From the NCBI RefSeq assembly GCF_018919265.1, contig NZ_JAHLQO010000004.1, forward strand, positions 62,001 to 126,000: DNA of 64,000 nucleotides. The letters run 5' to 3'. The position numbers and the translations under genes are program-made. The notes below the pieces were generated by a model that worked only from the letters and a program-made list of their open reading frames with translations, had not been told where the DNA came from and ran no database searches. Positions 6,340 through 10,902 of this stretch are shown one piece after another. Origin of the DNA: Peptoniphilus ovalis (lineage in GTDB: Bacteria > Bacillota > Clostridia > Tissierellales > Peptoniphilaceae). Positions within the stretch are counted from its first letter, which is position 1; the number at the start of each line of letters is the position of its first letter.

Positions 6340-7115
6340 TTAATATAATTCTTTTCTTCGAGAACTCATTAGGTCGAATGTTTTTAATAGTTTCTTTTTA
6401 TAGTTTAAATCAATCTCTGTGAATTTAATTTCTATTTTTTTATCAGGGCTTATTAAGTAATCACCCATTGGGTTTATTACCGCACTTTGACCACAGAATC
6501 TATCTTTGGAATTTTTTGAAGTCTATTATTTGCAACAACAAAAATTTGATTTTCTATCGCCCTAACCTTGCAATAGGTTTTAAAATTTTCTTCTCCAGCT
6601 TCCGGCCAAGCTGCGACTATAAATAGTATTTCTATTCCTTGTAAGGCTAGTTTTCTAATCATTTCCGGAAAGCTAATGTCAAAACAAATTGCAACTGAAC
6701 ATTTAATATTATCAATTTTAAAAGTTATAAAATTACAACCTTGTGCTGTAAATTTATCTTCATCTGAACCTATATAAAGATGAGTCTTATCATAGGAAGC
6801 TATAAGTTCACCACTTCTATTATAAATAAAAGAAGTGTTTTTTACTTCTCCATTATAAAAATTCGCAACGCTTCCTCCTATTATATTTACATTTAGTTTT
6901 TTAGATAGTTTTGAGAAAAATTTATTTACTCTATCTCCTTCTCCAATAACTTTTTCTTTTAACTCTTCATCAAATTCACAAATATTCCAAAGTTCAGGTA
7001 GAACTATAGTATCAGGTCTATTTTTAGCTGCTTCTAGAATTTTTTCTTCAGCAATTTTATAATTTTTATCTATATTTACAGGGTCAAATTTATCTTGAAT
7101 AATTGCTATTTTCAT
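6340..7115 (-). pseudogene. Nitrilase-superfamily carbon-nitrogen hydrolase (omega-amidase-like) with a single frameshift
   Basis: From the ATG at 7115 (AGGAGGG upstream) the frame encodes 212 residues of a C-N hydrolase with the whole catalytic triad: Glu41 in LPELWN, Lys110 in YDKTHLY and Cys144 in AICFDISFP. It then stops at 6477. The family's conserved C-terminus continues in another frame: NSKDRFCGQSAVINPMGDYL followed by about 40 residues to a TAA at 6340-6342. The switch point is the T6 run at 6512-6517 (A6 on the coding strand); one extra A would join the halves into a 258-residue protein, the normal family length. It could be a recent mutation, a sequencing error, phase variation or slippage. 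A hairpin terminator after ileS sits just upstream. Confidence 0.85.
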
Positions 7116-7159: not shown

Positions 7160-10100
7160 TTATAACTTTTCTATTGCTATCTTAATATCGTGACCATTTA
7201 AGTTTTCAACTTCAGAAGAGTTGTCTACATTCTCAATCTCAAGAGCAAGAGTTTCAGTTTTAATAAATTCTTTTTCTGATTCAATTGCTTCTGTAACTTC
7301 TTCATCAGTAGTGTATTTAATCTTAATATTGTCAAGAATATCTAGATCTTTTTTCTTTCTAAGTTGTTGAACTTTAGATACAAATTCTCTTACATAACCT
7401 TCTTTTAAAAGTTTTTCATCGAGCTCAGTGTCAAGAATTACGAAAAGATTATTTTCCATAACTACGTCAAAACCTTCTTTGGCGCTAATTTTAACTTCAA
7501 CAAAATCTCTTTTGATTTCTGTTTCTTCTCCGCCAAGTTCTAACATAACATCTTTTTCATTTAGTTCATTAAGGAATTCTTTAGAATCTAATTCGCGAAG
7601 TACATTTCCGAATTCTTTAACTTTCTTTCCAAGTACGCTACCGCAAACTTTGAAATTTGGTTTTAATTCAAATTCCATATATTTAGAAAGATCTTTTTCA
7701 AATACAACTTCTTTGACATTTAATTCTTCTTCGATTAAATCAGTTAATTCGCCAATTATTTCTTGATATTTACCATCGATAATTACCTTATTAAGAGGTT
7801 GTCTAACTTTAATCTTAGCTTCCTCTCTTGAAGCTCTACCAAGTGTTACTAAATCTCTAACAAGATCCATTTTTTCTTCGACCTTGTCATCAATTTTAGC
7901 TTCATCAAATTCCGGATAATCTGCAAGATGAACTGATTCTCCCTCAGTTAGTGATTTATACATTTCTTCAGCTATAAATGGAACAAATGGAGCTATTAGT
8001 TTAGTTACTCCTAAGAGAACATCATAAGTTGTCTTGTAAACTGCAAGTTTAGTTTGATCTTTATCAGTTTTCCAGAATCTTCTTCTGTTCCTTCTTATAT
8101 ACCAGTTAGAGATATCCTCGATTACAAATTCTTGGATTTCACGAACTACTTTTGTAAGTTCAAATTGATCCATATCTTCTCTAACATTTTTAACAAGTCT
8201 ATTGTATTTAGAAACTAACCATTTGTCGATTTCATCTAAGTCTTCGTATTTAACATCGTATTCTCTTGGATCGATTTCATCTGTATTTGCATAAAGACTA
8301 AAAAAGTTGTAAGTGTTTCTTAAAGATCTAAAGAATTTAGATTCAATTTCTCTTAATCCATCTTCATCAAATTTTGTAGGAGCCCATGGTGGTGATACAT
8401 AAAGTAAGTACCATCTCACAACGTCAGCACCGTATTTATCAAATAATTCAAATGGTGCTACAGTATTTCCTCTTGATTTAGACATCTTCTTTCCTTCTTT
8501 ATCAAGAATTAAGTCATTTACAAGTACATTTTTATACGGACTCTTTCCAGTCATATAAGTTGAAATTGCAATTAAGGAGTAGAACCATCCTCTAGTTTGG
8601 TCAATTCCTTCACAGATAAAGTCTGCTGGGAATAATTCATCAAAGTTTTCTTTATTTTCAAATGGATAATGCCATTGTGCAAAAGGCATTGAGCCAGAGT
8701 CAAACCATACATCAATTACATCAGGTTCTCTCTTCATTTCCTTGCCACAGTGAGGACATTTCAAATGAATATCATCAACATAAGGCCTGTGAAGCTCTAC
8801 ATCTTCAGGTACATCTTCAACGGCTTTATTTCTTAAATCTTCGATAGAACCAACTGATTCTGTATGACCACATTCACATCTCCAAATTGGAAGTGGTGTT
8901 CCCCAATATCTTGAACGAGAAATTGCCCAGTCATTAAGATTTTCTAGCCAATTTCCAAATCTCTTTTCTCCGACAAAATCTGGGAACCAATTTACTCCGT
9001 TATTATTTTCAATTAGCTTATCCTTAAACTTAGTAACTTCAATGTACCAAGATGGATGTGCGTAATAAATAAGTGGAGTGTGACATCTCCAACAGTGTGG
9101 ATAATTATGTGACACTTTTTGCTTAGAGAATAGTAAATCGTGATCAATTAAATAATGAAGAATTTCATGATCTGCGTCAATTACAAATTGACCCTTCCAT
9201 GGAGTTTCAGTAAACTTGCCTTCTTCATCTACTGGTTTAATCATCGGAAGGTCATATCTTCTTCCAGTTTGGTAGTCATCTTCACCAAATGCAGGTGCAG
9301 TATGAACAATACCAGTACCATCTTCTGTAGTTACATAATCAGCTAAAACGACATAAAATGCTTTTTTATCTGGTTTTATAAAATCAAGTAATTGTTCGTA
9401 TTCAATGTGTTCAAGTTCTTCACCTAGAAGAGTTTCAACTACTTCATATTCACTGTCTTTAAAAACATCTCCTGCAAGATTTTTTGCAACATAATAGAAA
9501 TTTCCATCTTCATGCTTAACTTTTACATATTCAACTTTTGGATTAACTGCAAGGGCAATATTTGATGGAAGAGTCCATGGTGTAGTTGTCCATGCTAGGA
9601 AATATTCATTATCTATGTCTTTGATTTTAAATTTACAAGTTGCAGTAACTGTTTTGATTTCTTCATAGCCTTGTGCAACTTCGTGAGATGCAAGTCCAGT
9701 TCCACATCTTGGACAATATGGCACAATTTTATGACCTTCATATATAAGTCCATCATTAAACATTTTGTCTAGAATATGCCATACAGATTCTATATAAGAA
9801 TTTTCAAGAGTGATGTAAGGATGATCTAAGTCAATTAAATATCCCATTCTTCTAGTAAGTTGTCTCCACTCTTTTTCATATTCAAAAACAGACTCTTTAC
9901 ATTTTTTATTAAATTCTTCAACTCCATAAGCTTCAATGTCTTGTTTATTGTGAAGATCTAATTTCTTTTCAACTTCAATTTCTACTGGTAGACCATGAGT
10001 ATCCCAACCTGCTTTTCTCTTAACTTCATATCCAAGCATTGTATGATATCTACAAGTTAAATCCTTTAAAGTTCTCGCCATTACATGGTGAATTCCAGGT

Positions 10101-10261
10101 TTACCATTAGCTGTTGGAGGTCCTTCATAGAAAATATATGGTTGTCCATCTTTTCTTGTCTCCACAGATCTGTGAAGAAGATCGATGTCATCCCAAAATT
10201 CTGAAATTTTTTCTTCTCTCTCACTAACATGAGCTTTTGATAATTCTTTAAACTTTGCCAT
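7160..10261 (-). CDS. ileS: Isoleucyl-tRNA synthetase, type 2 (IleRS2), with GIHH signature
   Basis: A 1033-residue class I aminoacyl-tRNA synthetase that charges tRNA-Ile. The N-terminal Rossmann fold starts with GPPTANGKPGIHH (47-59); the KMSKS loop is at 592-596; the editing (CP1) domain lies between them and the anticodon-binding domain and C-terminal extension follow. The length and the GPPTANG form place it in the eukaryote-like IleRS2 group rather than the ~920-residue IleRS1, and IleRS2 enzymes are generally mupirocin tolerant. Unusually, residues 56-59 are GIHH where class I enzymes have HIGH (HXGH); I confirmed this from the codons at 10085-10096. Expression is controlled by the T-box leader upstream, and a terminator follows the stop. 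Confidence 0.97.
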   Translation of the reverse strand: MAKFKELSKAHVSEREEKISEFWDDIDLLHRSVETRKDGQPYIFYEGPPTANGKPGIHHVMARTLKDLTCRYHTMLGYEVKRKAGWDTHGLPVEIEVEKKLDLHNKQDIEAYGVEEFNKKCKESVFEYEKEWRQLTRRMGYLIDLDHPYITLENSYIESVWHILDKMFNDGLIYEGHKIVPYCPRCGTGLASHEVAQGYEEIKTVTATCKFKIKDIDNEYFLAWTTTPWTLPSNIALAVNPKVEYVKVKHEDGNFYYVAKNLAGDVFKDSEYEVVETLLGEELEHIEYEQLLDFIKPDKKAFYVVLADYVTTEDGTGIVHTAPAFGEDDYQTGRRYDLPMIKPVDEEGKFTETPWKGQFVIDADHEILHYLIDHDLLFSKQKVSHNYPHCWRCHTPLIYYAHPSWYIEVTKFKDKLIENNNGVNWFPDFVGEKRFGNWLENLNDWAISRSRYWGTPLPIWRCECGHTESVGSIEDLRNKAVEDVPEDVELHRPYVDDIHLKCPHCGKEMKREPDVIDVWFDSGSMPFAQWHYPFENKENFDELFPADFICEGIDQTRGWFYSLIAISTYMTGKSPYKNVLVNDLILDKEGKKMSKSRGNTVAPFELFDKYGADVVRWYLLYVSPPWAPTKFDEDGLREIESKFFRSLRNTYNFFSLYANTDEIDPREYDVKYEDLDEIDKWLVSKYNRLVKNVREDMDQFELTKVVREIQEFVIEDISNWYIRRNRRRFWKTDKDQTKLAVYKTTYDVLLGVTKLIAPFVPFIAEEMYKSLTEGESVHLADYPEFDEAKIDDKVEEKMDLVRDLVTLGRASREEAKIKVRQPLNKVIIDGKYQEIIGELTDLIEEELNVKEVVFEKDLSKYMEFELKPNFKVCGSVLGKKVKEFGNVLRELDSKEFLNELNEKDVMLELGGEETEIKRDFVEVKISAKEGFDVVMENNLFVILDTELDEKLLKEGYVREFVSKVQQLRKKKDLDILDNIKIKYTTDEEVTEAIESEKEFIKTETLALEIENVDNSSEVENLNGHDIKIAIEKL

Positions 10262-10286
10262 CTAAAACTCCTTTTTCTTCTAAATA

Positions 10287-10488
10287 TAAAAATCCCTTCT
10301 CAATATGGAGAAGGGACGAATTAACCGCGGTACCACCCTAATTATAGGTATCTATCACTTAATAATTTTATCGCAATTAACGTGAAGACTTTTAATCTTC
10401 AAGCTCCGAGGTGATCTATGCATTATTAAAACTCAGCCTCTCACCAATTAGCTGATCTCTGTGGTTTAGACAAATGCACTCTTCTCAT
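10287..10488 (-). promoter_or_regulatory. T-box riboswitch, isoleucine (ATC specifier)
   Basis: On the minus strand the leader of ileS contains the canonical T-box sequence AGGGTGGTACCGCGG (10325-10340) followed by an intrinsic terminator (stem TCCCTTCTC at 10293-10301 with GGAGAAGGGA at 10307-10316, then T5). Upstream is a Stem I with GAGAAGAGTGC, an AG-bulge-like segment, a TTGGTGAGAGGC loop and the specifier loop ATAGATCACC, where ATC is an Ile codon followed by the expected purine. Uncharged tRNA-Ile should stabilise the antiterminator and switch ileS on. The element begins only a few bases after the rrf2 stop codon. Confidence 0.95.
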
Positions 10489-10494
10489 CATAGC

Positions 10495-10902
10495 TTATAT
10501 AAACTTGTCAATTGTTTGACTTTTAAACATTTTAATAATATTACTTTGAATTCCACCTAAGCTACTGTGGAATTTACAATGTTTAACATCATCTTTTTCT
10601 CTCTTGTTACAATGATTGTCTTCATAAAGACATCTATTAATAACAATTGGTCCGTCCACTGCAACGATTATATCGTAGAGTGTAATATCTTCTTTGGGCT
10701 TATTTAAATAATAGCCACCTGTAGAGCCTCTCTTGGCAGCTGTTATCCCTGCAAGATTTAATTTACGAAGTATGCGAAGTGTAAATCTTTTTGTCACAGC
10801 TTCTTCTTCGGCAATTGTTGGAGCGCCAACAACTTCATTTTCATGTCTTGCTAGGTAGCTCACAATTCTAAAGGCATAATCTGTTTCTTGCGTAATTCTC
10901 AT
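10495..10902 (-). CDS. Rrf2-family transcriptional regulator
   Basis: A 135-residue winged-helix regulator. The N-terminus MRITQETDYAFRIVSYLA and the RGSTGGYYLNKP wing are diagnostic for Rrf2. Three cysteines and a histidine, Cys91, Cys98, Cys109 and His112, lie where IscR and NsrR hold an iron-sulfur cluster, though the second gap is longer than in IscR. That makes an Fe-S, NO or redox sensor likely, which is inference. It follows the SAF-domain dehydrogenase by 43 bases on the same strand; RBS AAGGGG precedes the ATG. Its targets are unknown. The stop lies immediately before the ileS T-box, so readthrough into that leader is possible. Confidence 0.9.
   Translation of the reverse strand: MRITQETDYAFRIVSYLARHENEVVGAPTIAEEEAVTKRFTLRILRKLNLAGITAAKRGSTGGYYLNKPKEDITLYDIIVAVDGPIVINRCLYEDNHCNKREKDDVKHCKFHSSLGGIQSNIIKMFKSQTIDKFI

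Follow-up and report, generated by a model that had tools for sequence, protein, structure and literature searches.

The isoleucyl-tRNA synthetase (IleRS) encoded in the Peptoniphilus ovalis window (the whole stretch of 64,000 nucleotides analysed here) raises the question of whether an enzyme with the first and third positions of the class I HXGH signature exchanged can serve as the only IleRS of its host, and whether this exchange makes it refractory to mupirocin. The gene, ileS, occupies 7160..10261 on the minus strand, with a Shine-Dalgarno-like AAGGAG 6 bases ahead of its ATG (10268..10273, minus strand), and its 1033-residue product is recognized by matches to PDB sequences and to TIGR00392 (992.8 bits against a cut-off of 621.4), with ValRS models scoring it below their cut-off. 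Translation of positions 10261 to 7160 confirms the preliminary description in placing the codons GGA ATT CAC CAT (10085..10096, minus strand) after the PPTANG stretch, where they specify Gly56-Ile57-His58-His59, a GXHH signature replacing HXGH. It was also right that no shifted HXGH is available at the ATP site: a scan of the whole 1033-residue protein detected no H.GH elsewhere, and in a phmmer search of PDB sequences, which recovered Priestia megaterium IleRS2 entries as the best matches, the motif stretch aligns without gaps with PGVHH of 8c8w and with PHVGH of 8c8u/8c8v and of the Thermus IleRS2 1ile. In an AlphaFold2 model of the protein (built from 35 sequences; pLDDT 86.3, pTM 0.75) the helix comprising residues 57-75 starts at GIHH, and Foldseek searches of the PDB with this model again placed P. 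megaterium IleRS2 entries at the top, the first three with a TM of 0.87 and the swapped mutant 8c8w third among them. The second class I signature, KMSKS (residues 592-596; 8474..8488, minus strand), is canonical.

Several features indicate that this protein is a type 2 IleRS. It contains HYPFE (residues 531-535; 8657..8671, minus strand), the marker of the type 2 (eukaryote-like) enzymes, and in PPTANG it has Thr50 where IleRS1 has the Tyr59 marker; NKIL, another IleRS1 marker, was not found in the protein. (HYPFE as the IleRS2 marker, and Tyr59, NKIL and SSL as IleRS1 markers, are taken from the excerpted text of PMC4861432.) A tree computed without the motif columns separates 47 IleRS2 sequences, including that of the window, from 8 IleRS1 sequences with a branch support of 100; loci L336 and L339, which were missed by the KMSKS filter, stand outside this tree and had both motifs read separately. 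With Gly in the first and His in the third place of its signature, the protein also conforms to the definition of the G/AXHH kind of IleRS2 (Brkic et al. 2023, PMC10485003, in the portion available), with which it shares both the type and the swap of positions 1 and 3. The earlier assignment to type 2 with a GXHH signature is thus upheld by the markers, the tree and the reading of the motif.

The survey of relatives shows that the exchange is fixed in the sampled family. GIHH is present in all 14 genomes of the genus, and each of the 128 readable genomes among the 130 of the family has GXHH (124 GIHH and 4 GVHH), the two unread ones being G089, which yielded no match, and G077, which yielded only a C-terminal fragment. 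Among named relatives, taken as the best 80 of at least 584 in the genome scan, 79 were readable (L069, a partial gene lacking the motif region, was dropped); 68 of these have GXHH (67 GIHH, 1 GLHH) and 11 a canonical signature (10 HIGH, 1 HAGH). In the class sample all 27 further best-scoring loci, three of them family members already counted, are GXHH, and all 20 hand-picked lower-scoring loci are HXGH; the gap in the scores runs from 1438 down to 1181 bits, and the motif readings leave out 19 genes that score between 1438 and 1545 bits. GXHH is common in Bacteroidota and Cloacimonadota too: all 30 loci read from the phylum to which the Bacteroidetes genome G371 belongs (61 genomes) have it, as do all 30 from that of G369 and G370 (Armatimonadota, Cloacimonadota; here Cloacimonadota; 59 genomes), each set consisting of the 30 loci that best match the window protein and hence favouring GXHH. 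Loci L260 and L264 were dropped from all analyses.

The second-ileS look-up bears out the preliminary description's statement that this is the only visible ileS. The genome (14 contigs totalling 2.10 Mb, completeness 99.63%) has a single TIGR00392 match above the cut-off, which is the window gene, and the next matches are a ValRS with HMGH and a LeuRS with HVGH. Every one of the 14 genus genomes likewise has one IleRS match (E <= 1e-90, every candidate scored). As the same query and threshold picked up IleRS1 at E values of 1e-126 to 1e-146 in 10 of 10 control genomes, chosen since IleRS1 seemed present in them, an IleRS1 would have been detected in the genus. In the family 129 of 130 genomes gave a match, 128 of them a single one, and the two matches of the remaining genome, G116, are neighbouring fragments of a single gene that is split; a second ileS is less firmly excluded at this level because at most 6 candidates were scored per genome. 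The G116 gene (L239, C1:466932-470020) is split over two overlapping frames, by a sequencing error or in reality.

The probability that GIHH stems from an artefact of frame or assembly, or that the window ileS is an inactive paralogue, appears vanishingly small: the 1033-residue frame is open throughout, the 13 other genus genomes carry 76-87% identical orthologues with the same motif, and no other IleRS was found in the genome. Since GXHH occurs in all 128 readable family genes, it is not attributable to chance or sequencing error, and the GXHH enzyme very likely functions as the sole IleRS. That an IleRS2 may be the only IleRS gene of a genome is noted in the available text of PMC10485003.

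Upstream of ileS lies a T-box leader RNA (10309..10500, minus strand; RF00230, 113.8 bits, gathering threshold 93), in which the Infernal alignment and the sequence identify the specifier triplet as AUC, for isoleucine (10413..10415, minus strand), followed by A. The leader shares GGGUGGUACCGCG and the specifier AUC with those of T-box regulated aminoacyl-tRNA synthetase genes (RF00230) and shows nothing unusual in comparison with them. As expected from this RNA family, it would read uncharged tRNA-Ile and raise the level of IleRS. AUC is found in the same loop of all 7 related leaders displayed, that of L008 being offset by one column. Given that a T-box reached the gathering threshold in 8 of 13 relatives searched, in one case at about 1.2 kb, such regulation of ileS is not universal; the distant case is that of Peptoniphilus asaccharolyticus (L008 2164-2340), with the T-box about 1.2 kb upstream of ileS and not directly ahead of it. 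The start of the window leader (10495-10500) overlaps the terminal bases of the Rrf2-family regulator gene that lies upstream, and a comparable overlap of the leader with an Rrf2-type gene is seen in Peptoniphilus genitalis (L006). On the other side of ileS, window positions 6477-7115 (minus strand) hold a nitrilase/amidase-family ORF of 212 residues, which appears C-terminally short, its best match covering positions 1-198 of a 262-position model; this ORF was absent from the 3.5 kb after ileS in P. genitalis L006.

The proposed hyper-resistance to mupirocin needs to be considered against enzymes that have been assayed, for which we draw on the portions of PMC10485003 and PMC4861432 available to us. 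According to the former, 86 of 163 IleRS2 have signature positions 1 and 3 exchanged. The preliminary description had invoked a P. megaterium IleRS2 bearing the swap, but this precedent has to be corrected: P. megaterium IleRS2 naturally carries HVGH, with a mupirocin Ki of 1.08 uM, and GVHH is a laboratory mutant, with a Ki of 460 uM, a kcat about 10 times lower and a KM for Ile about 5 times higher (PMC10485003). An engineered GVHH version of the Thermus thermophilus IleRS2 has a Ki of 35 uM (PMC10485003). The naturally swapped enzymes show the larger effects, namely the Deinococcus radiodurans IleRS2 with ALHH (Ki 6.6 mM, falling 823-fold when made canonical; PMC10485003) and that of Streptomyces griseus (Ki 10 mM; PMC4861432). 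The earlier claim of hyper-resistance therefore keeps its footing in the published G/AXHH enzymes, which are hyper-resistant, and loses the P. megaterium one.

The named systems differ from the window enzyme in instructive ways. The D. radiodurans enzyme has Ala in the first signature position where the window enzyme has Gly, and its Ki, like that of the S. griseus enzyme, is known by assay (6.6 mM and 10 mM), whereas that of the window enzyme is a prediction. The closest solved relative is the P. megaterium IleRS2 (8c8u, 8c8v, 8c8w; 46% identity in the fold alignment), whose laboratory mutant 8c8w has GVHH at the very place of the window GIHH; the P. megaterium enzyme carries HVGH in nature and stands beside an IleRS1, whereas the window enzyme has GIHH naturally and its genome yielded no IleRS1. 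MupA, the mupirocin-resistant IleRS of Staphylococcus plasmids, is 43.9% identical to the window protein, but it is a plasmid gene, whereas the window ileS lies on a draft-genome contig amid housekeeping-type genes. An acquired MupA/MupB resistance gene was considered and rejected, the window protein scoring 1011.2 bits with the MupA and 961.9 bits with the MupB exception model, against a cut-off of 1900.

In IleRS2 structures the tip of the signature helix is displaced, such that a His in the third position fits without moving the adenine, replaces the first His and clashes with mupirocin (PMC10485003, available text). By analogy with these P. megaterium structures, His58 of the window enzyme would do the catalytic work of the first HXGH His, a displaced helix tip would allow the bulky third residue to leave the adenine in place, and the same His58 would also clash with mupirocin. 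Near-normal isoleucine activation would then be expected, and for mupirocin a Ki that greatly exceeds the canonical IleRS2 value and is plausibly millimolar. The same source lists Asn70 and Phe586 as mupirocin contacts present in PmIleRS1 and absent from PmIleRS2 (PMC10485003). In our alignment and numbering, Asn70 is equated with Ala62 of the window enzyme, three residues past GIHH (10076..10078, minus strand), in a column that has A, S or G in the 81 GXHH rows and N in the Paracoccus IleRS1 (L265); Phe586, equated with His582 of PmIleRS2, appears to correspond to Leu584, in the Asn582-Asp583-Leu584 stretch that precedes KMSKS (8510..8518, minus strand) and includes the adenine/mupirocin-stacking position. 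Judging by these aligned columns, the window IleRS would be devoid of the two mupirocin-contacting side chains of PmIleRS1, having Ala62 and Leu584 instead.

Taken by analogy with the natural swapped enzymes, the prediction of millimolar mupirocin resistance for the window IleRS seems well founded, and we would expect the Ki to be very high and the strain to be intrinsically tolerant of mupirocin. A millimolar Ki is not guaranteed, as swapped enzymes range from 35 uM and 460 uM (engineered) to 6.6-10 mM (natural), and the susceptibility of the strain could shift through uptake or other targets. We consider it highly probable that the window encodes a sole housekeeping type 2 IleRS with a natural GIHH signature, under an isoleucine T-box, and with a predicted Ki well above that of canonical IleRS2. 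A literature search of titles and abstract openings retrieved no mupirocin assay of this enzyme, its genus or its family, and no mupirocin susceptibility data for Peptoniphilus. Growth of clostridia at 100 mg/L mupirocin provides indirect field evidence, the ileS type of the isolates not being given in the available text (PMC8316555). In a study whose available portion does not name an ileS type, Clostridiaceae were covered best on a medium containing mupirocin (PMC13085705); Peptoniphilus, Finegoldia and Anaerococcus are absent from its text.

The family with GXHH fixed in its sampled genomes includes Peptoniphilus, Anaerococcus, Aedoeadaptatus and Urinicoccus, many members of which live on people. 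If the prediction is true, nasal or skin mupirocin would be predicted to spare the GXHH members of this family, and calling them resistant on the strength of their type 2 IleRS would point to an intrinsic and not an acquired trait. The G/AXHH kind of IleRS2 is already known; what is added here is its family-wide fixation as the sole enzyme and the corrected precedent.

How the exchange arose can be approached through trees computed without the motif columns. On a 105-row tree the 50 GXHH rows of Clostridia group together with a support of 100, apart from a clade of 23 HXGH IleRS2 rows from Clostridia and Bacilli (support 96); the smaller mixture-model tree of 47 IleRS2 and 8 IleRS1 sequences recovers the same two groups with supports of 93 and 88. 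The IleRS2 trees were built without the D. radiodurans and S. griseus sequences. This phyletic pattern shows the swapped motif to be old and inherited. Being old and shared with distant phyla, it was probably not selected by clinical or topical use of mupirocin, and GXHH is unlikely to be an adaptation to topical mupirocin. The co-occurrence of HXGH and GXHH IleRS2 in Clostridia might be taken to mean that GXHH emerged inside the clostridial line through conversion of a canonical HXGH enzyme. We regard this scenario as improbable: the clostridial GXHH clade lies apart from the HXGH clade of Clostridia and Bacilli on both trees, neither of which supports such an origin, the GXHH label needs 2 changes on each of them, and the intermediates GXGH and HXHH are absent among the IleRS2 that were read.

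It is about an even matter whether GXHH represents a catalytic solution, or else a historical state, of its IleRS2 clade, with mupirocin resistance as a by-product and not the selective cause. In favor of this reading, GXHH is the sole state both in one clade of Clostridia and in the 30 of 30 best-match loci from each of the two distant phyla, and the natural swapped D. radiodurans enzyme has a catalytic efficiency similar to that of canonical IleRS2 (PMC10485003, available text). Against it, the authors of PMC10485003, in the same text, infer antibiotic pressure, and mupirocin-like natural products may have been present in ancient habitats. We also considered residues that might have changed in concert with the signature. 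Gly635, Asn118, Ala/Ser62 and Asn582 split GXHH from HXGH IleRS2 almost perfectly, Asn582 being present in 77 of 81 GXHH rows against 0 of 23 HXGH rows. As GXHH and HXGH fall on the two sides of approximately one tree split, such covariation is inseparable from shared ancestry, and we do not retain it as evidence of coupling. Nor is Asn582 required for GXHH, since GIHH occurs with Thr in that column in L263 (a Bacteroidota IleRS2 from Prevotella nigrescens, on a long end branch) and with His in L272.

A second signature variant was found while IleRS1 genes were being read as controls. With one enzyme of this variant as the query, 78 of 291 genomes of the class Clostridia have an IleRS1-type match at E <= 1e-150; in two of these (G338 and G193) the N-terminus is missing from the match, and the other 76 comprise 48 with HXGH, 27 with HXGT (23 HLGT, 3 HMGT, 1 HIGT) and 1 with HLGQ, a partial gene (class loci L330-L339 and L340-L408). 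The Thr does not reflect sequencing error, as it is encoded by each of the four Thr codons and turns up in single-contig genomes too. In five HXGT genomes (G135, G151, G154, G163, G318), with every candidate scored, no further match reached E <= 1e-90, and their HXGT enzymes are on this account very likely housekeeping. HXGT recurs in 27 of 70 loci (L412-L481) of a wider phylum set drawn from 273 genomes with a match, a biased sample that joins the 30 best matches to an HXGT query with 40 picked genes, one each from 40 families, and that has one gene, L427, in common with the class set. Four named IleRS1, from Paracoccus, Fusobacterium, Bacillus and Vescimonas, are HXGH.

On a 148-row IleRS1 tree the signature undergoes 15 state changes, 11 of them forced by supported branches; a thinned 78-row mixture-model tree gives 14, at least 9 of them forced. 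(Both trees omit L427, the same gene as L338, and L408, the HLGQ gene, which at 580 residues is below 700; the thinned one also omits L265, L409, L410, L411 and rows more than 72% identical with the same state.) By our count in an alignment with the Staphylococcus aureus enzyme (1ffy), the Thr of HXGT corresponds to His67 and the stacking residue to Phe587. Among the 148 rows, Tyr or Trp occupies the stacking position (the column of residue 608 of L340) in 40 of the 54 HXGT enzymes, against 4 of the 94 HXGH enzymes. The first 75 rows had shown this tie in 74 of 75 (4 independent pairs, p 0.125), but a strict tie broke down in the wider set of 148. Independent pairs on the 148-row tree give 5.3 in the same direction, 0.2 in the opposite one and 5.5 with no difference (median p 0.0625), and on the thinned mixture-model tree 4.7, 0.3 and 3.9 respectively (median p 0.125). 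The association of a Tyr/Trp stacking residue with HXGT is accordingly suggestive and not significant by independent pairs.

HXGH is stated for all IleRS1, with replacement of the fourth-place His by Gln only in laboratory-selected strains, in the excerpted text of PMC10485003. The alignment behind that survey has 379 sequences, and the four classes listed in its legend sum to 362. A literature search combining 'isoleucyl-tRNA synthetase' with 'HLGT' returned no papers. The PROSITE class I pattern permits H, N, T or G in the fourth place, so Thr at this position is not new to class I enzymes overall. HXGT in IleRS1 is possibly the newer finding relative to GXHH and may be the part that a specialist would not expect; it matters more for enzymology, as the signature has been held invariant and yet Thr is common in the clostridial sample. 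We tentatively propose, with rather less than even confidence, that Bacillota have natural housekeeping signature variants of both IleRS types: GXHH in IleRS2, throughout a family of human-associated anaerobes, and HXGT in IleRS1, where the fourth residue would have alternated between His and Thr many times, often with Tyr or Trp at the adenine/mupirocin residue. If HXGT lowers the affinity for mupirocin, the same ATP site would have been rebuilt independently at least twice on the way to the intrinsic tolerance of anaerobes. Natural pairs of HXGT and HXGH IleRS1 offer material for dissecting the role of the fourth residue in catalysis and mupirocin binding. The single HLGQ gene (L408) comes from G283, a draft of about 250 contigs, and the two other members of its genus that were read have HLGH.
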